Of a DNA stretch of 64,000 nt, positions 16,457-64,000 are shown one piece after another. Below the pieces are notes generated by a model. It made no database searches. It saw only the letters and a program-made list of their open reading frames with translations, and was not told the origin of the DNA. Position numbers and translations under genes: made by a program. Within the stretch, counting starts at the first letter, position 1. Each line of letters begins with the position of its first letter. This DNA comes from Patellaria atrata CBS 101060 (lineage: Eukaryota > Ascomycota > Dothideomycetes > Patellariales > Patellariaceae), in NCBI GenBank assembly GCA_010093705.1, contig MU006096.1:1235908-1299907 (forward strand). Reading direction: 5' to 3'.

Positions 16457-17865
16457 ATGTACAAATCAGCAGTCCTCGCTTCCCTTTCCCTCCTTTCGCT
16501 CGTCTCCGGCCAGCAAGCCGGTACGTCGACGTCTGAAACTCACCCCAGGCTCACCTGGCAAGACTGCAGCGGCGGTAGCTGCAAGAACGTCAACGGCGAG
16601 GTCGTGCTCGACTCCAACTGGCGATGGGCCCACGTCAAAGACGGCTACACCAACTGCTACACCGGTAGCGAGTGGAACGCAACTGTCTGCCCTGACAACG
16701 CCTCCTGCGCGAAGAACTGCGCCATTGATGGTACGGACTCATCACTGAAAGTTGATAAGAGGAATTGAAACTGACTGTCCACATAGGTGCTGATTATGGC
16801 GGGACTTACGGTATCTCCACCAGCGGCAACTCCCTCACCTTGAAGCTAGTCCAGAAGCATGAGTATGGCACCAACGTTGGTTCCCGTGTCTACCTCATGG
16901 AGAGCTCCAGCAAATACAAGATGTTCAACCTCATCAACAAGGAGTTCACCTTCGACGTCGATGTCAGCAAGGTTCCTTGCGGTGTCAACGGTGCCCTTTA
17001 CTTCGTCGAGATGACCGCTGATGGTGGCATGAACAAGGGCCAGAACAAGGCAGGCGCCAAGTACGGAACTGGCTACTGCGATGCTCAGTGCCCCCACGAC
17101 ATCAAGTGGATCGCAGGTGAGGGTAATGTCGACGGCTGGCAGCCTTCCTCCGATGACGAGAACGCCGGTGTCGGCAAGTACGGAACCTGCTGCCCAGAGA
17201 TGGATATCTGGGAGGCCAACTCCATGGGTGCTGCCTACACTCCTCATCCTTGCTCCACCTCAGGTGGCCCGTACCGCTGCGAAGGTACCGAGTGCGGTGA
17301 TGTTGGTGGTGACCGTTATGCAGGTGTCTGCGACAAGGACGGCTGTGATTACTCCCACTACCGTCTCGGTGACCAGGCCTACTATGGCTCAACCGTGAAC
17401 GTCCAATCCAAGTTCACCGTCGTGACTCAATTCCTCGGATCGGGCAGCAACCTCAACGAGATCCGCCGCCTCTATAAGCAGGGCGGTTCCGTTATTGAGA
17501 ACTCCGTCGTTGCCGTCGACGGTGTCGAAGCCTACGACTCCATCACCGACCAGATGTGCGAGGATGTCAAGGTCGCCTTCGGAGACAACAACCACTTCAA
17601 GCAGCTCGGCGGCTTGAACGAGATGGGTGCCTCGCTCGCTCGCGGCCACGTCCTCGTCATGTCCATCTGGGTCGACTTCTACGCCCACATGCTCTGGCTC
17701 GATTCCACCTACCCCACCGACGCCGACCCGAGCAAGCCCGGTGCGGCCCGTGGTGCTTGCGACACCAGCTCCGGAGACCCCGTTGACGTCATCGCCAACC
17801 AGCCCGACTCCACCGTCACCTTCTCCAACATCAAGTTCGGTGCCATTGGTTCCACCTACAAGTAA
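16457..17865 (+). CDS. cbh1: GH7 cellobiohydrolase (reducing-end acting, no CBM)
   Basis: Secreted family GH7 cellulase that hydrolyses crystalline cellulose with retention, releasing cellobiose. Exons are 16457-16730 and 16787-17865 (450 aa), with a 56-nt GTACGG...CATAG intron joining IDG to ADYGGTYGI. Residues 1-18 are a signal peptide (cut before [12 protein letters not shown]). The catalytic motif EMDIWEAN lies at 229-236: E229 nucleophile, D231 assisting, E234 acid/base, equivalent to the 212/214/217 triad of the Trichoderma enzyme. Tunnel-loop regions ([44 protein letters not shown]) favour cellobiohydrolase over endoglucanase. The protein ends at FGAIGSTYK with no linker or CBM1. One oddity is the usual SLWDD core, which here reads SIWVD. 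The gene is intact with strongly GC-biased third positions, typical of high expression. Confidence 0.95.
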
Positions 17866-25566: not shown

Positions 25567-26914
25567 ATGCTCAACTGGGCAAAGGCAACGTGAGAAATCT
25601 TTTCCTTTTTCGAATCATCATGTATTAACTCCCCTACCATCTAGTCTAGCCAATGTTGCTGGCACACAAGAACCAATATACGGCCCGGACGCCATCCAAA
25701 CGGTCACCAAGCAAGCCAAGGAAGTCCCATACACTGAGCTGGTGAAGGATGATCTGCGATGGATCACCATGGAATCAACCTGCGTTGAAACCCAGACTTT
25801 CTATGTCATGGCGGATGGTGGACCCATTGGCATAGCGCAGGTCATTTACAACAATGTAGCGTGAGAACAGTTCGAAATCACCGTTGGAGATTAGCGACTA
25901 ACGTGCGCATCATAGTGGCCTTAGGACCACAGTTCAATTCACTAGCAAACTATTCTACCAGGACGGCAAAAATTCAAATAGTTGGGCATCCGATGCATTG
26001 GAGAATTATGGATTCGACTCGGAACGCTACTCCCTTCATGCCGACAATTGTTCCGTTGAACTTTCAGAAGATGGCTCGTCATATACGATCAAATCCACGA
26101 CAAGCTCGCATAGCGTAGTCAATCTGAAGTTCACTAGGATTTCCCTAGGATTTGTTGTGGGGAAGAATGGTACGACTTCCTATGGGACAGATCCTGCGAA
26201 TCCCTGGGGCAAGATGCGCCATGCCTTTTGGCCGCGTTGCAAGGTGGAGGGTAGCATTATCACGCAAGCCGGAGACGTAGACATGACCGGGCGGGGTTTC
26301 TTCGTTCATGCTCTGCAAGGCATGAAGCCACATCACGCAGGTAAGGATCTACTTATTATCGCATTGTCACTTCACCTCTGATTAGCTATCACTAGCTGCT
26401 CGTTGGGATTTTGCGAATTTCCAGTCACCCAACTACTCCGCGTTCCAGATGTCTTTCACTACTCCACCCTCATACGGGTCGACCGTCGTCAATGTTGGGG
26501 GTCTTGCAATCGATGACGAGATTGTATTTGCTGGGGCAAGAAATTCAGCAACGCACCTAAAAGTCAAGAGCGATGCGGACAACGATTGGCCTGAACCGAC
26601 CGCAGCTAAATATGTCTGGGACGGGAAGACGAAAGATGGCAAGGACGTTCACCTCGAGCTTGCGGGCAACCTGGGCGAAAGAGTGGATCGGGTCGATGTC
26701 ATGGCTGAAGTCCCTGGTTTCATCAAAGCCATCGTAGCAAGTGCTGCAGGTACCAAGCCCTACGTATATCAGGTATGTCAATTTAGAACACTTGAGAGAA
26801 CGGCATTAACCATCTTCACAGTTTGCTTCTAAGCTCACTCTATCTGTCAAAATTGGAGAAGAAGTGAAAGAAGAAGATGGTCTACTCTTCGCTGAGGCTA
26901 CCTTCATCTCTTAA
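25567..26914 (+). CDS. svf1: Svf1-family ceramide-binding survival factor
   Basis: Svf1 homologue of 377 aa. The yeast protein aids survival under oxidative and diauxic stress and is known as a lipocalin-fold ceramide-binding protein working between ER and Golgi. Five exons: 25567-25589, 25645-25860, 25916-26340, 26396-26772 and 26822-26914. The 23-nt first exon encodes MLNWAKA and joins [15 protein letters not shown], rebuilding the amphipathic N-terminal helix typical of the family. Other conserved blocks are [71 protein letters not shown], and [17 protein letters not shown] near the C-terminus, the last preceding [15 protein letters not shown]. All introns are 49-55 nt with standard borders. 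The gene appears intact. The tiny first exon would be missed by simple ORF calling. Confidence 0.93.
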
Positions 26915-27608: not shown

Positions 27609-28561
27609 ATGGCTAAATTGGCGGACCGCCAGTCTGTGGTTTCGCCGATGGGTCCGGGGATTGCGAGATACGGGCCCCGTGGCGCTGGGTTGGGGTCGGG
27701 GGGGAAGGGGAAGAAGGGGTTTAAACGGCATAGGTGAGTATATGATATATCTGGTTTGAGATGAATAAAGTTTTGATTGAGGGGGGAGATGTGGTGATGG
27801 GGAGTGAGATGGGAATGTAGAAGCTGATCTGATGGATTCTAGGAAGATTCTGAGAGATACGATTGATGGCGTCACTCGTGGCAATATCAGGTGAGTCTAC
27901 GTTGTGAAGGTTTGCATTTTTAGGTTTACTGATTGAGATGAATAGGCGTATGGCGAGGCGCGGTGGGGTTAAGCGTATCTCAGGAGCTATCTACTCTGAT
28001 GTTCGCAGTGTGTTGAAAAGTCGTGAGTCGTTTCCTTGATATTGTAATTTTGGAACTGGATGTACTAACATTGAGGAGGTCTCGAGCTTGTATGATACAC
28101 TAGGTCTGAACTGGGTATGGATGAGCTAAGTTGGAGTGTAGATTCTTAGGGACATCGTTACGGTTGTTGGTGAGTTGGATAAAAAAAACAATTGAAACAG
28201 AAAAGCAGAATGTATTTCGAGCACCGGCTAATGATCGATGTTGCAGAACAGTACGGACGCCGAACCATCACTGTTGCGGATGTAAGTTACCTGTCCTTCC
28301 GCTTTGAAAGCGTGATATCTTTTACATATGCTAACTGGTTCTGCCAGGTTGTTTTTGCCCTTCGCCGTGTAAGTAACATGATCTGCAGTCTATTGGTCGA
28401 TCCCCTAAGCTAATTCATTCCTCTACGAAAGCTTGGTCAAACCATATATGTGAGTTCGAATCGTGTGTATCCTTCGCTGCACTTGCTGATGATGGCAGGG
28501 TTTCGGAAATGCAACCACTGGTGCGGGTAACCGCTCCACTGAACGCCCACCGGGCCTCTGA
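27609..28561 (+). CDS. hH4v: Divergent histone H4 variant
   Basis: Encodes a 141-aa H4-like histone in nine exons: 27609-27733, 27843-27890, 27946-28022, 28079-28089, 28142-28169, 28247-28281, 28348-28368, 28432-28449 and 28499-28561. All junctions have GT/AG and phases close. The core is clearly H4: KRHRKILRDTIDGVT, IRRMARRGGVKRISGAIY, then R-L-E-L-I-L-R-D-I-V across exons 4-5, RRTITVADVVFALRR and TIYGFG. The tail is rewritten: about 28 residues (MAKLADRQSVVSPMG...) precede a Gly/Lys-rich part in which K5 and K8 equivalents are lost, while K12, K16 and K20 positions keep Lys. After YGFG come 17 extra residues (NATTGAGNRSTERPPGL). Canonical fungal H4 has 103 aa and few introns. A divergent H4 variant gene is known from Neurospora; this may be its counterpart. 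It may act as a specialised nucleosome component. It is not a replication-type H4, and no H3 partner sits next to it. Confidence 0.88.
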
Positions 28562-28963: not shown

Positions 28964-30071
28964 TTAAACCTTCCCCCCAACGTCCCCAACATACTCATAC
29001 CCCCTATACCCCTCATGCTCCAGCGCCCTACTAACCCCCATCCTCCCCCTTGACGTCCTAAGCGGGCCCCTCGTCGCATCCACCAGCGGCCTCATCCACC
29101 GCTTCTCCGTTCCGTCCGAGGTAGCGGACTTGGTCACGATCGGCACCCGACACCCGCCCAGCAGCGTCGGCGACGAGTTCGCGTAGATGGTCTCCCAGCG
29201 CTGCGCCGGCACGTGGTAGATCTCGTGCCAGATGCTGATGTGCGGGTGCGAGGCGATGGTGCGGTTCCACCAGTCCCAGCCGGCGCGGTGGGTCGGGCCG
29301 TGGGCGAATTTATGGAGGCCTCTGTTGGGGGGGGGTTGGTTTAGTGCGATGATGGGGGATGAGGGGTGAATGGGAATAAGGTACTTACTCGGCGTTCTTG
29401 AAATAACAGACTTGCAGGATCTCGTTGCCGGTGGGTCGCTCGTTCGCGGTCCATTCTGTTATTCCGAGCATGCCGTACGTGTCGAATTCGTGTTCGAGCT
29501 CTTTGCTCATCCTGTTGAAGTAGGTGCCGATTTCTTGGACGCCAGGCCCAATGATGCCGAGGGGGCTGGATGGGTGGAGTGTGAGGTTAGTGTTTGGGTG
29601 TGGGATAGGGGTTTTTCAGGCGTAGAGAAAAAAGAGGTTATGCTATACGTACTGGTTGATACGTGTTCCGATCAATAGGACACAGATCTCCTCTCTCGAA
29701 GCCTGGGCGCCGAAATCACCGTTCTCGTCGGGCAGTTGAGCGGAGAATTTGGTGAGGATTACGTCTTTCATCATGGGATTGGATTTCCATCCAGCGGCTT
29801 GGAGGAAGGCGTCAGCGGTTCGATAGAAGAGGAGGAAACCTGCTGGGAGGAATGCTAGGCGGCCGAAGAGGAGATAGGCCAGGCCTTGGAAACAAGCTCC
29901 CAGCGCAAGCCATGACGAGATCGTAAGTTGATCGCGAAAGGTGTTTAGGTCGTTCACGCTGAAATTGAAAGGAGGGAGCCAGCCAGACTTGGTCCTGAAC
30001 GATTCCCAGCGTTGAGTGTTGTGACGTTTGTCCTGGGGTGCTGAGGCTTGGAGGGGTTTGAAGGCACTCAT
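28964..30071 (-). CDS. DUF4188-type fungal protein (dimeric alpha-beta barrel fold likely)
   Basis: Protein of 317 aa from three exons: 30071-29653, 29565-29389 and 29321-28964. Donors are GTACGT and GTAAGT, and phases close. The N-terminal part has a hydrophobic segment (ISSWLALGACFQGLAYLLFG to about residue 70, then LAFLPAGFLLFY) that may form a membrane hairpin. The conserved domain follows: VLLIGTRINHPLGIIGPG, YGMLGITEWTANERPTGNE, LQVCYFKNAEGLHKFAHG and HRAGWDWWN, then IWHEIYHVPAQRWETIYAN. This pattern matches fungal proteins annotated as DUF4188 or monooxygenase-like. They are thought to share the ferredoxin-like fold of ABM-type monooxygenases, but no cofactor or substrate is established. 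The ATG at 30071 was chosen because upstream in-frame sequence contains no ATG. Confidence 0.75.
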
Positions 30072-43076: not shown

Positions 43077-44536
43077 ATGGACTTCCTAAAGAAGAGTACT
43101 GCTCTATGGGCTCTCGCCACAGTTCCGATTATCCACGCTCACACGCTTTTCACCAACTTTTTCGTCGATGGAGTTGGTCAAGTATGTGCCCATCCCGATT
43201 ATCACACCCAATCCTAATCACCTAAACCAGGGCAATGGCACCTGTATCCGCATGAACGACAATCCCTCCCAAGCCAGCTTCCCTATCCCCAACATCGAAA
43301 GCAACGACATGGCCTGCGGTACTCCCCTCCCCTTCTTTTCCAATTCTCCCACATACTTACCCTTCGAGGCATCCACGGCATGCACGGCGTCTCCCGCGTC
43401 TGCCCCATCCCCGCTGGCTCCCTCCTAACCTTTGAATTCCGCTCCTGGGCCGCCGACCGCACGAAACCGCGCCTCGACTCCTCCCACAAGGGCCCCTGCG
43501 CCGTCTACATGAAAAAAGTCTCCTCCGCGGTCTCCGACACCGCGACCGGCGCCGGCTGGTTCAAGATCTGGGATCAGGGCTTCGACGCCGCGAGCGGGAA
43601 ATGGTGCACGGAGACCCTCATCGCGAACGGCGGATTACTGTCCGTCAACATCCCCCAAGGGGTGCAGAGAGGTTATTATCTGCTGAGACCGGAGTTGCTG
43701 GCCCTGCATAATGCGGGGAATCGCGACCCGCAGTTTTACGTCGGCTGTGCGCAGGTGTTTGTGGAGGGTGGTGGGGATATGGTGCCTGTGGATATGGTCA
43801 GCATACCGGGATATGTGACGTACGGCGAGCCGGCCGTCGCGTTCAATATCTGGAAGCAACCCATGGACCTGCCCTACCCGATTCCGGGGCCGCGGGTCGC
43901 GAGGTTCGAGCACGCCGGTGCCGTCGCGAACACGGTCCAGGACGAGGGGCTCCGGCCTGACGGCTGTATCATGGAGAACGGGAATTGGTGCGGGTTCGAG
44001 GTCGACGATTATAGCGATGAAGCGGGATGTTGGGCCGTATGTCTTCCCACCTACATCAAATCCGACATCGCGAGACTGATCTTATGTAGGCGGGCGAACA
44101 GTGCTGGGACCAGAACCAGGACTGCTGGGATTCCGCGCCCCCAACCGGCGGGCGCGGCTGTGAGCTCTGGGCCCAGAAGTGCAAGGCGCTGAATGCGGCG
44201 TGCAAGGCGCGGAATTTCAACGGGCCGCCGAATAGGGGGAGGTATTTGACGCCCGAGAGGGAGACGATCGCGCCGCCGGTGCCGAGGGCGACGGGTGGAG
44301 GGAGTGAGGTGTTTCCGTCTGAAAGATCGGGTCTGGCTTCGGTCTCGGTTTCACGGGGGTATCAAGGTCCTGATCCCGTGGCTACCGCTGGACCTACTTC
44401 TGCGGGATATACTCACGAGATCTCGGAGCTTGCGCCTGAGGCGACGAGGGCGCCGGTTAGGGTTGTGACGGTGTATGAGACGGATGTTGAGACGGACTGG
44501 GTGACCGTTACGGTTCGGAGGGGCCTGCGTGCTTGA
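43077..44536 (+). CDS. AA9 lytic polysaccharide monooxygenase
   Basis: Secreted copper enzyme that oxidatively cleaves cellulose chains and boosts cellulases. Exons are 43077-43181, 43231-43318, 43369-44036 and 44090-44536 (435 aa). The signal peptide ends ...VPIIHA, exposing His22 (HTLFTNFFVDG) as the N-terminal copper ligand. The second ligand is His104 in LDSSHKGPCAVYM. His178, Gln186 and Tyr188 (LLALHNAG, DPQFYVGCAQV) complete the active site. The first intron lies right after DGVGQ. After the catalytic domain come the conserved Cys-rich region (EQCWDQNQDCWDSAPPTG, then CELWAQKCKALNAACKA) and NFNGPPNRGRYL. A Ser/Thr/Pro-rich tail then ends RRGLRA, with no CBM1. Substrate is inferred as cellulose or xyloglucan. 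The gene appears intact and pairs functionally with the GH7 enzyme. Confidence 0.93.
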
Positions 44537-44793: not shown

Positions 44794-47044
44794 CTAACAC
44801 CGTTCGAAAACCCTGTACAGCCCCTTCAAATCAGCCACCTCCACGACCCCTTTCAGTAAACCCTTGGTAGCAACCAGTCTGGCCTTCAAGGCGGGAAATA
44901 TAACGTTCTCCAAAGCCCGCAAAACGTGCTTCCGTCGCGCCGCTAACTCTCCGTGCTCTTCAGCGTCTTCCTCACCTTGCATTTGCCCAAGGACGGATTC
45001 AGGTGGAAGCGGTTCGGGGACATAAAACGCGGCTAGCTCGACGAGGAAGGTGTGAAAGCATTCCTTCTCGCTCGACCAATTCACCTTCGGGCCCAACCTC
45101 AGCAGAAACTGTGGGAGTTTAGCAAGAGAAGGCGTATACCCCTTCATCATCAACGGAATACTAAGCAGCTCCCCTTCCTCTGAGATTTCCAGCGCAAAGT
45201 ATTCCTCCAACATGTTCCGTCTGCCCATAAGCTGATCCCTCACCAACGTCACGACCTCATCCCAATCGAGAGCATCCTCGCCAGTCACAGCCTTCTCCTG
45301 CTCCGCGGCTACGGTTAATAGTTCGGTGAGATTCAGCACCGGGTTGAACCTGATGCTGCCGAAATTGCCAAAATCGGTGAGCCCGAGCTGGTAGAAGTAC
45401 TCGTTGCACAGCATGCCGTAGTCGACAAGGTACAGCTTGACGCCGCCCTGGATCGCGGCGATGCGCTTGCGGGCGTCGACGATGCCGACGAAGGTGTGGC
45501 TGGCGAAGACGTCGGTGAGGGCGGAGTGCATTTCATCGCGCACGGCGGCGCGGAGTTCTCTGATCGTGGTGAGGCGGCAGGATACGTGTTCTTTGTCGGA
45601 GTACTCGTATTCGATGTCTTTGAGGGGTTGGGACTCTTCGCCATTGGCTTCGTTGGAGGGACGAGTGGTGGGTGGGAGCATGGAGGTGATTTTTCGAACC
45701 CGGGAATCGGTTCGCACCAAGGCGTTTTCGTACGGTCTTTGGGAGTTTGATTTCTGGGTTGTGGATTTTTGAGTGGTTCTGGGGTCTCTTTGTGGAGTCG
45801 AGGGCTGCGAGTCTTTGGAGGGAGTCAAAGGTATTGTTGGTATACTGACACCGGGGAGTAGGCTTTGCGTTAGGAATGTCCGGCTTGTATCTACTTTGGT
45901 TAAGCCCCCACGTATCTCGTCACAGATAGTCTCGATGATCTCGTCTTCATTCAAGAAGTTAACTTCCCTCTTTGTAGGATGGACATTGACATCCACACGT
46001 TGGGGGTCAATCTCTAAACTCAGGTATATAAAAGGATGGCCACCTTTGGGGAGGAATATCGTGTAGATTTGTTCGAATGCTTTCTTGATAGCCGACGACT
46101 CCACCGAACGATGATTGATAAACAGGAGAAGAGTAGTTCTCTTCACGCTATAATTTGCGTTACTCACCCAACCCGAAGCAGTGAAGCCCCAACGGTCACT
46201 TGAAACCTTGACCTCAACCAGTTCATTTGCAACGGAACTTCCATGAATTTGACGGATTCTATCGATAGTAGAGGCATTAACTGGTACGAAGATCCCCATT
46301 GACGAGTCTCCCTGTTTCTTGCAGGAAAATGCAACTCCTTCGCAATGGACAGCGTATCGGCCGACCATATCCAATATCTTAGCATATTCTTCGCTACCAG
46401 ATCGGAATGCACGTCTTCGAGTAGGTATGTTATAAAAGAGATCCTCAACCGTGATTCGAGTGCCTATTTGGCCTGCCGCTGGTTTCGGATCCGCACTCTG
46501 GCCAGGTTTGGCCGGTACCAGCTTGCCATCCGCATATTGAGCTTTGTATGCACAACTTGACTCCTTGGTCCTAGTTATGATACTCAAGTGAGCAATATGG
46601 CTGATGCTGGCAAGAGCTTCGCCCCTGAAGCCATACGTAGCGATAGAAGTTAGATCTTCGAACGCTTTCAACTTAGATGTTGTGAAACGCTCGCAGAGAA
46701 TCGGAAGGTCATCTCGCTGCAATTTCAACATTAGTGCTCTCTTATTTCCTCATTCATGGTGTCCTAGCTCTTACGTTGATCCCATGTCCATTATCACTGA
46801 TCTGCAGAAGCTTTAGCCCGCCGTCTTTCGCAATGATTTCAAGAGATGTAGATCCAGCATCCACGGAATTTTCCAAAAGCTCTTTGAGAGCATGAACAGG
46901 TGCAACTATTATCTCTCCCGCTGCAATCTTGTTCACCACATCTTGGGACAGAGCTCTTATTCGCCCAAGAGCATCAGTCTGGGTTGGTGTCTTCTTAATC
47001 TTTGAGGAATCCGGTGATGGATTCAACTCCATTTCGTTCCCCAT
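44794..47044 (-). CDS. mlh1: DNA mismatch repair protein Mlh1 (MutL homologue)
   Basis: MutL-family ATPase that pairs with Pms1 or Mlh3 to act in mismatch repair and meiotic crossing-over, in the nucleus. Exons are 47044-46775 and 46716-44794, 730 aa, with a 58-nt intron directly after DNGHGIN. GHKL ATPase motifs are complete: [19 protein letters not shown], then [15 protein letters not shown]. The transducer domain includes [14 protein letters not shown] Ser/Thr/Gln-rich linker covers about residues 345-440, where Mlh1 proteins normally have a disordered linker. The C-terminal dimerisation domain ends in ...YRVFERC, the invariant FERC end that contributes to the Pms1 endonuclease site. Length matches the family. 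Its start codon lies only 172 nt from that of the divergent radical SAM gene, so they probably share a promoter. Confidence 0.96.
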
Positions 47045-61641: not shown

Positions 61642-64000
61642 ATGGAGGGCCCGCTGCTCTCCCCAGGGGCGAACGGGGTCCAGTCCCCAAACCCTCCAAC
61701 GCCTACTATAGATCCTCAGTTAATTGTGGATCATCTAATAGGAGTTTTACATGTAACATTTGGAGCGTCAGAGCAAGACTTACAAGCTCCCGGAAGCTTG
61801 TTGTCGAAATCGAGACTCCCAGATACACTACAACGGTGCACCCGATTTGCGTTAGAGACACAACCAGCCTTGTACATACAGAAGGACGTCGTGGAGACAA
61901 ATGGAACTGTGACTTCTGGGGATGGAGCAGGTAATCATCCGGATTTGCGGTTCCCTTAACATTTGCTTACTATTATTTAGTTAACGCTCCTCATTTTTCA
62001 TATACCCTCTCTTCGGAGCTCTCTTACTCGCCGACTTGCATAGCTACCTTGGTTATATTTAAAGTCACGCCGACTATCGATCCCTCCCTTCCAATCACCT
62101 CGCAAGTACATGTTATCAATCTTCCTGGAATTAGTGCCGCAAGCACTTCTTCGGCTCAGATTCCTGGTGCTTCGCCTTCTGCGCTTATACATTCACTCCT
62201 TCGTTTGGCTATCTCACCATATTTTGACGCATATACTAGAAATCAAGATGGGACACAGACAGGATGGTCGAAAGGGGACGTGGATGCGCGAACGGGGATC
62301 CCAAGTACTAAGAAGAAGATTGCGGAGCTCGAACTAAGTCTTCTTCATCTGCAGCAGAACATTGAGATACCGGAACTCTCCCTATCAATGCATCCTGTGA
62401 TCCAATCTGCACTTGATGCTGCTGAGGCCCGCGGAGTGAGACCTTCGACGGATTTAATCCCAGCAGAATTACTAGCGGATAGTACTTTTCTGAACAATCT
62501 TCAGTCCACGGTTAACAACTGGATCAAGTCTATCCAAACAATTACGAAGACGAGTCGGGATCCCTCAACTGGTACAGCAACCCAAGAGATCAACTTCTGG
62601 CTATCAATGGAATCTGCTTTGGAATCAATAGAAGCACAGCTACGTAGTGATGGAGTCCAACTGACTATGGAGGTGCTCCGACATGCTAAGCGTTTCCAAG
62701 CTACTGTCAGTTTTAGCGCTGACACTGGCCTAAAAGAGACTACGGACCTTGTCCAGAAGTATAATCAGCTTATGCGAGACTTCCCCTTGGATGACCTTCT
62801 TTCCGCTACATCTTTGCAGAAAATACTAGAGGCGATTGTCCAGATATTTGCCCACCTGAACAAGAAGCTCCGTATCTGTCCCTATCCCGTTCGTCGGGCG
62901 CTTCTACTTGTCGAGGCCATCTCCGGAGACCTGGATGCGCAGCTACATAAACTCCTACACGGAAGGTCTTTAATGCACCTCGACTATCAAGAATTCGAGT
63001 CGATAATGGTAATTGCGGACCGTATATGGCAGACTTGGGAGGATAATGTCAAAGAATTTACTACCGTGGCACGTGAGGCAATTCGGCGAAGAAACGAAAA
63101 ACTTATCCCTATTAAGATTACTGCGCGTCACCTTCAAACTAGAAACCGTCTTTCTTACGTAAGGACTTTCCGAGCTAACCATGAGCAACTTCAGCATACT
63201 ATCATCAACGTTCTTGGGGCGGAATCTGCGCCTAGAGATTCTAAGGATGCAGCAAATGGTGGTGGTCCTATTGTAATAGAAGAGATTGGCGATGTAGATG
63301 CTGTAGAGGAAGTTGCGCAAGCTTATACGGCCCTTAAAGATGTTGATATTCTTGATGTCTCGCCTGAGGGTACTCGGATATGGGCTCAAGCAGAGGAGAC
63401 TTATAATGAACGAACATCCAGAGTTGAAAATTCAATCATCGCTCGACTACGGGATCGTTTGGCGACTGCCAAAGCCGCGAACGAGATGTTTCGCGTCTTT
63501 TCTAAATTCAACGCCCTCTTTGTGAGGCCAAAGATCAGAAGCGCTATCGCCGAATACCAAGTACAGTTGATTGACAGCGTTAAGAATGATATATCTGGGC
63601 TCCACGAGAGATTCAAGCAACAATATGGCCACTCAGAGGCACATGCCATGGCTCAGTTACGGGACCTGCCTCCAGTGTCTGGCGCAATCATTTGGGTTAG
63701 ACAAATTGAGCGACAACTTGATGCTTACATGGGAAAGGTGGAAGATGTCTTGGGTAGGGACTGGATTCTACACGCCGAAGGTCAGAAACTCCAAAATGAA
63801 AGTAACATGTTTCGAAAGAAATTACAAACAAGGCCGATTTACGATGCTTGGTTGCAAGAAGTTGCGAGGAGAAATCTTTCCATCGCGGGACGACTATTTG
63901 CTATTAATCGTAACCGTGCTGCAGGCAATTCCTTGGAACTCAATGTTAACTTTGATCCTCAGATTATTGCATTATTCAAGGAAGTAAGGAATCTCCTTTG
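61642..64000 (+). CDS. dhc1: Cytoplasmic dynein heavy chain, N-terminal tail (runs off the right edge)
   Basis: First about 769 codons of cytoplasmic dynein heavy chain, the minus-end motor that moves nuclei and endosomes in hyphae (nudA in Aspergillus, ro-1 in Neurospora). Exon 1 is 61642-61930; exon 2 starts at 61981 and is still open at the window end. The ATG at 61642 was chosen because the frame upstream starts only with TTG, and [12 protein letters not shown] leads into [20 protein letters not shown] as in fungal orthologues. Tail features are [29 protein letters not shown] and [11 protein letters not shown], then [19 protein letters not shown]. Next come [18 protein letters not shown] and [17 protein letters not shown], the heavy-chain dimerisation and intermediate-chain binding region. 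The AAA+ motor lies outside the window. The frame has no breaks. Confidence 0.93.

Follow-up and report, generated by a model that had tools for sequence, protein, structure and literature searches.

An intron-rich histone H4 gene of Patellaria atrata, very probably a member of the H4E variant family

The closest described relatives of the gene analysed here belong to H4E, a histone-H4 variant occurring across the Pezizomycotina and distinguished, according to those portions of the text of Flipphi et al. (2024; PMC10878826) on which we draw throughout, by N- and C-terminal extensions and by changed lysine and arginine sites in the tails. The H4v of Neurospora crassa (hH4v), which PMC6703697 mentions as well, is named as an H4E orthologue, and the authors infer that the canonical H4 is not replaceable by it. 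The type gene has a phase-2 first intron (i1), exons of 29–32 and 16 nt, a phase-2 third intron (i3), an 88-nt exon, and phase-0 introns thereafter; for the last exons the figure legend gives 60, 18, and 21 nt, while the body text speaks of a 63-nt exon. A further intron appears, from the text, to lie beyond the last shared phase-0 intron, at 19 nt in the early-diverging classes and the Lecanoromycetes and at 18 nt in the Dothideomycetes, in which latter class intron gains are considered possible; the Eurotiomycete genes possess a class-specific intron (45|18), usually along with added codons. In the Eurotiomycetes and the Dothideomycetes the gene is located between svf1 and nudA, and certain lineages, such as Penicillium, have lost it. 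Many of the proteins, that of Aspergillus nidulans included, carry a changed K16 (PMC10878826).

With respect to function, the A. nidulans H4E (hheA, AN12228) is nuclear, interacts with H3 in BiFC, and is expressed more strongly during nitrogen starvation at 37 °C; the protein level is low, and overexpressed H4E-GFP overlaps histone H1 in the nuclei. This H4E cannot replace H4.1. No phenotype was detected upon either deletion or inducible (alcA) overexpression, and the expression of hheA from the H4.1 promoter caused a mild growth phenotype, which effect the authors tie to a possible cell-cycle incorporation (PMC10878826, in the portions indicated). In the open-access literature searched we found nothing newer on H4E function than this study, no further paper carrying its title, and no papers on the H4–H2B contact tyrosines. 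The variant family is already described; what is new here is the P. atrata copy, with a corrected exon map containing two small exons, and with long arms.

The window, by which we mean the whole stretch of 64,000 nucleotides of P. atrata CBS 101060 DNA analysed (contig MU006096.1), contains at 27609-28561 on the forward strand a nine-exon gene for a divergent H4 of 141 amino acids, modelled by hand and checked by script, with both strands being read. The limits proposed in an earlier, sequence-only reading were retained: the ATG is at 27609, and the stop codon ends at 28561. All eight introns, of 49–109 nt, are GT-AG, and the joined exons form an open frame without a stop. The exons are the following:

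27609..27733, + strand: exon 1, 125 nt; codes for the lengthened N-terminal tail up to and including R19; the ATG has A at -3 and G at +4, and the donor, GTGAGT, is phase 2.
27843..27890, + strand: exon 2, 48 nt; KILRDTIDGVTRGNI; equal to the published exons 2 and 3 summed (32+16 nt).
27946..28022, + strand: exon 3, 77 nt; RMARRGGVKRISGAIYSDVRSVLKS; opens the 88-nt block.
28079..28089, + strand: micro-exon 4, 11 nt; RLEL; ends the 88-nt block, with a phase-0 intron next; part of the best of 1049 in-frame models.
28142..28169, + strand: exon 5, 28 nt; ILRDIVTVV; opens the 63-nt block.
28247..28281, + strand: exon 6, 35 nt; EQYGRRTITVAD; closes the 63-nt block.
28348..28368, + strand: exon 7, 21 nt; VVFALRR.
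28432..28449, + strand: exon 8, 18 nt; LGQTIY; phase-0 introns on both sides; spacing as given for Dothideomycetes in the available text of PMC10878826.
28499..28561, + strand: exon 9, 63 nt; GFG, the 17-residue C-terminal extension, and the stop.

For the interval from exon 3 to exon 6 (27946-28281) we enumerated all combinations of up to three GT-AG introns of 40–130 nt, which enumeration yielded 1049 in-frame models. The best of these, containing the 11-nt and 28-nt exons, scored 140, with the runner-up at 135, and aligned without gaps to R36–D85 of the canonical H4. When the span comprising both small exons (28023-28246) was shuffled with dinucleotide composition preserved and four bases at each end kept, none of the 150 shuffles attained 140, the highest scoring 124. 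An exon at 28198-28281 (KSRMYFEHRLMIDVAEQYGRRTITVAD) had also been considered as the source of the fold's second half and was rejected because it needs both a gap and an insertion, the three-intron model being the best of the 1049. Automatic annotation could well overlook a gene so rich in introns and with an exon of 11 nt. The GC3 of the gene (0.528) falls between those of the two canonical H4 copies (0.471 and 0.74), so that codon composition says little.

Those canonical genes, H4.1 (contig C24) and H4.2 (contig C3), were also modelled here and encode 103 amino acids with two introns each; H4.1 is oriented divergently to an H3 gene: a histone match lies on the opposite strand, and the reverse-strand reading there begins with MARTKQTA. 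Contig C3 contains in addition, at C3:1006275-1006646, a divergent H3-like gene split into two or more exons (QQRKKHRYKPGTLALKEIRKYQ... and ...KDIQLARRIRGAWGGLG), which may be the centromeric H3 (CENP-A); it came from a set of ten translated histone-fold loci, of which the five read on the correct strand were used. A second copy of the variant was not found in the genome by searches that scored the best candidates only; nor were any relatives confirmed among 89 pattern matches in prokaryote genomes and 9 in viral contigs.

The spliced product contains the H4 blocks KRHRKILRD, ARRGGVKRISG, and TIYGFG picked out in the sequence-only reading, and phmmer aligned it to H4 chains of the PDB at a best E of 8.8e-34, though no Pfam model matched it at E <= 0.001; PF15511 recognises each canonical H4 gene by its last exon and misses the variant. 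Over the core from K16 to G101 the protein is identical to the two canonical H4s at 53/86 and 54/86 positions, without gaps, whereas H4.1 and H4.2 agree with each other at 85/86; 32 of the 86 sites differ from both copies, in keeping with the divergent variant, altered at many core sites and in both tails, that had been proposed. What the canonical proteins have in common with it is the histone-fold core and an identical basic patch, residues 16–20 and 23 being unchanged (6/6); what separates them, apart from length and intron sites, is the lysine that H4.1 and H4.2 possess at positions 5, 8, 31, 77, 79, and 91. In the variant K31, K79, and K91 are arginine and K77 is glycine, so that the core contains 4 lysines versus 8 and 16 arginines versus 13.

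Regarding the tails, the N-terminal one is indeed longer than the canonical, as had been claimed, but the excess amounts to 22 residues and not to 28, since 38 residues precede K16 compared to 16 in the canonical H4; in A. nidulans the excess is 5 (PMC10878826, in part). Read without gaps back from K16, the tail has leucine at position 5 and glycine at position 8 and keeps K12, K16, and K20, which pattern the earlier reading had described correctly; nevertheless, with lysines also at positions 10 and 13, there are six up to K20 versus the canonical five, and the tail is therefore not lysine-poor. K16, kept here, is changed in the A. nidulans H4E (PMC10878826, in part). After YGFG come 17 residues (NATTGAGNRSTERPPGL), with the two arginines and two prolines already noted, versus a single residue in the canonical H4—an excess of 16, compared to 7 in A. 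nidulans (same source and extent).

Within the core, F61 is replaced by arginine. At positions which we take to face H2A-H2B, the changes are Y72V, H75Q, Y88F, K91R, and R95Q, while the residues that we presume to contact the DNA are kept at 8 of 10 sites. With these contact lists being background assumptions and not derived from a structure, the changes were not significantly enriched at the H2A-H2B contacts (5/10 versus 27/76 elsewhere, p 0.49); nor were they in the C-terminal half (19/41 versus 13/45, p 0.12).

Set against the published H4E model, the gene structure agrees in phase and block length at i1, i3, i4, i5, i6, and i7, a correspondence established by length and not by alignment to H4E genes. 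The blocks measure 48 nt, 88 nt (77+11), and 63 nt (28+35), followed by 21 and 18 nt; as the 48-nt exon equals 32+16, i2 is missing, and two extra phase-1 introns are present. The final order of 63, 21, and 18 nt differs from the 60, 18, and 21 of the figure legend in PMC10878826 (as far as that source was available). With the genes of A. nidulans and other Pezizomycotina this one shares the density of introns, the phase-2 introns, the 88-nt and 63-nt blocks, the phase-0 introns, and the svf1/nudA neighbours, and with their proteins the conserved core, the longer tails, and the changed lysine and arginine sites (PMC10878826, same extent). It differs from them in that i2 is missing and the two phase-1 introns are added, and from the Eurotiomycete kind in that the 63-nt block, which has no added codons or other insertion, is split 28|35 instead of 45|18 in the best model. 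An 18-nt exon before the last intron and two extra introns correspond to what the text of PMC10878826 describes for the Dothideomycetes; from that spacing and those introns we infer a Dothideomycete origin. None of the eight introns is at either canonical H4 intron site (0/8).

The published neighbours are both in the window:

25784..26914, + strand: svf1 orthologue, delimited in part; Pfam detects the Svf1 N-terminal domain over two exons, and the remaining exons, like the stop at 26914, were read by eye.
61935..63998, + strand: open frame with the beginning of a nudA-type dynein heavy chain gene; DHC_N1 E 2.8e-111; continues past the window end.

The svf1 locus is the only one with an Svf1 N-domain that was found in the genome, and the H4 variant sits 0.7 kb downstream of it. 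An AAA_6 match, the sole one above cut-off in the genome, lies further on in the same contig as the dynein start. In P. atrata, as a difference from A. nidulans and the Pezizomycotina genes, 33 kb with other genes separate the variant from the downstream nudA-type gene: the svf1/nudA neighbourhood persists in a form expanded by about 33 kb. The next gene downstream, at 28967-29458 on the reverse strand and convergent with the variant, is Monooxy_af470-like (PF13826, E 2.9e-19) and belongs to that intervening group. The window also contains a GH7 glycoside hydrolase (16759-17862, + strand) and an AA9 gene, formerly GH61 (43218-44189, + strand), which two genes suggest a fungus that degrades plant biomass, and an MLH1 mismatch-repair gene at 44797-46749 on the reverse strand (Mlh1_C E 2.1e-98).

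On the basis of the gapless H4 core, the intron phases and block lengths, the absence of introns at canonical sites, and the svf1 and dynein neighbours, we consider with high confidence that this is the orthologue of H4E (hheA/H4v) in a filamentous ascomycete that most likely belongs to the Dothideomycetes, the family having been compared through its published description. The traits of H4E—a histone-fold core, longer tails with changed lysine and arginine sites, the gene structure, and the svf1–nudA location—are all present, and the kinship with the Neurospora variant that the sequence-only reading had suspected is borne out in that H4v is a named H4E orthologue (PMC10878826, in part).

As to what such a protein might do, we tentatively favour a mechanism to which we would nonetheless give somewhat less than an even chance. 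H4E would fold as H4, pair with H3, as the interaction in A. nidulans suggests, and enter a minor and conditional set of nucleosomes. Because the basic patch and 8 of 10 presumed DNA contacts are kept, H4E should still bind the DNA and the neighbour's acidic patch. To judge by the replacement of K31, K79, and K91 by arginine and of K77 by glycine, those nucleosomes would not be acetylatable at most core lysines. The 17-residue arm, with its two prolines, would be placed at the site of contact between the canonical H4 and the docking domain of H2A, an effect on the H2A-H2B contact, as earlier proposed, being plausible; H2A-H2B might be held less firmly, and such nucleosomes could be used under stress, for example during nitrogen starvation. 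Counting against this mechanism, at the level of sequence, are the nonsignificant enrichments at the presumed H2A-H2B contacts and in the C-terminal half, together with a tail that is not lysine-poor.

Published work bears on the same mechanism from both sides. Succinylation at K77 of H4 increased the proportion of tetrasomes, in a section whose title states that the modification promotes H2A-H2B release (PMC7515725, in part), and by analogy the loss of charge at K77 in H4E may act in that direction; the yeast K77Q and K77R mutations, in contrast, had little effect on telomere silencing (same source and extent), which result argues against it. H4 R92, which contacts E76 of H2B (PMC8235166, in part), is kept in the P. 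atrata H4E. In A. nidulans the lack of a detected phenotype upon deletion or inducible overexpression weighs against the mechanism, whereas the mild phenotype from the H4.1 promoter weighs for it (PMC10878826, in part).

If, alternatively, the protein were H4-like but not nucleosomal—a question of mechanism and not of identity—H4E would pair with H3 and yet act mainly as a buffer, in soluble form or bound to a chaperone, or as a transient deposition partner, and not as a stable component of nucleosomes. That possibility, which we regard as improbable though deserving of some weight, would accommodate F61R, the length of the C-terminal arm, and the changes where contact with H2A-H2B is presumed, but fits poorly with the 8 of 10 presumed DNA contacts and the basic patch (6/6) being kept. 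The A. nidulans data are divided: the scarcity of the protein and the absence of a phenotype upon deletion would suit it, but the overlap of overexpressed H4E-GFP with histone H1 in the nuclei does not (PMC10878826, in part).

That the gene is instead a relic of H4, a decaying duplicate no longer functional in P. atrata, appears to us very unlikely. The substitution of 32 of 86 core sites, the lack of a detected deletion phenotype in A. nidulans, and losses of the Penicillium type (PMC10878826, in part) could be read in that sense, but nine exons joined in frame and without a stop across eight GT-AG introns, the kept lengths of the published blocks, and the kept svf1/nudA neighbourhood speak against it. 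In comparison with the two canonical copies, moreover, pN was 0.316 and 0.315, far below the pS of 0.735 and 0.779, the comparison being between paralogues with synonymous sites close to or past saturation. The open frame and this difference argue that the protein has been under constraint ever since the duplication, a view with which a recent relaxation would be compatible. Among the outcomes that the sequence-only reading had named as fatal, a decaying copy is not suggested by the intact frame and the comparison with the paralogues, and a lack of orthologues is countered by the reports of them in print across the Pezizomycotina (PMC10878826, in part). An independent, lineage-specific duplication of the canonical H4 outside the H4E family is hardly credible, since the two extra phase-1 introns, the lack of one intron that the published type possesses, and arms longer than those in A. 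nidulans (PMC10878826, in part) are outweighed by the fit of i1, i3, i4, i5, i6, and i7 and of the svf1/nudA neighbourhood to H4E, and by the absence of any intron common to H4E and the canonical H4 genes of the same genome.

Returning to a nucleosomal H4E, we can conceive of a more specific version, though a doubtful one, in which the protein is a 'modification-locked' H4, with arginine at K31, K79, and K91, glycine at K77, an intact acidic-patch contact, and the C-terminal arm intruding on H2A docking. Were that version true, the nucleosomes would be compactable yet prone to H2A-H2B loss, a chromatin state for starvation or dormancy. H4 ranks with the most conserved proteins of eukaryotes, and an entire subphylum has retained H4E; the substitutions listed here, above all those that remove core lysines, make the question of its function testable by nucleosome reconstitution.
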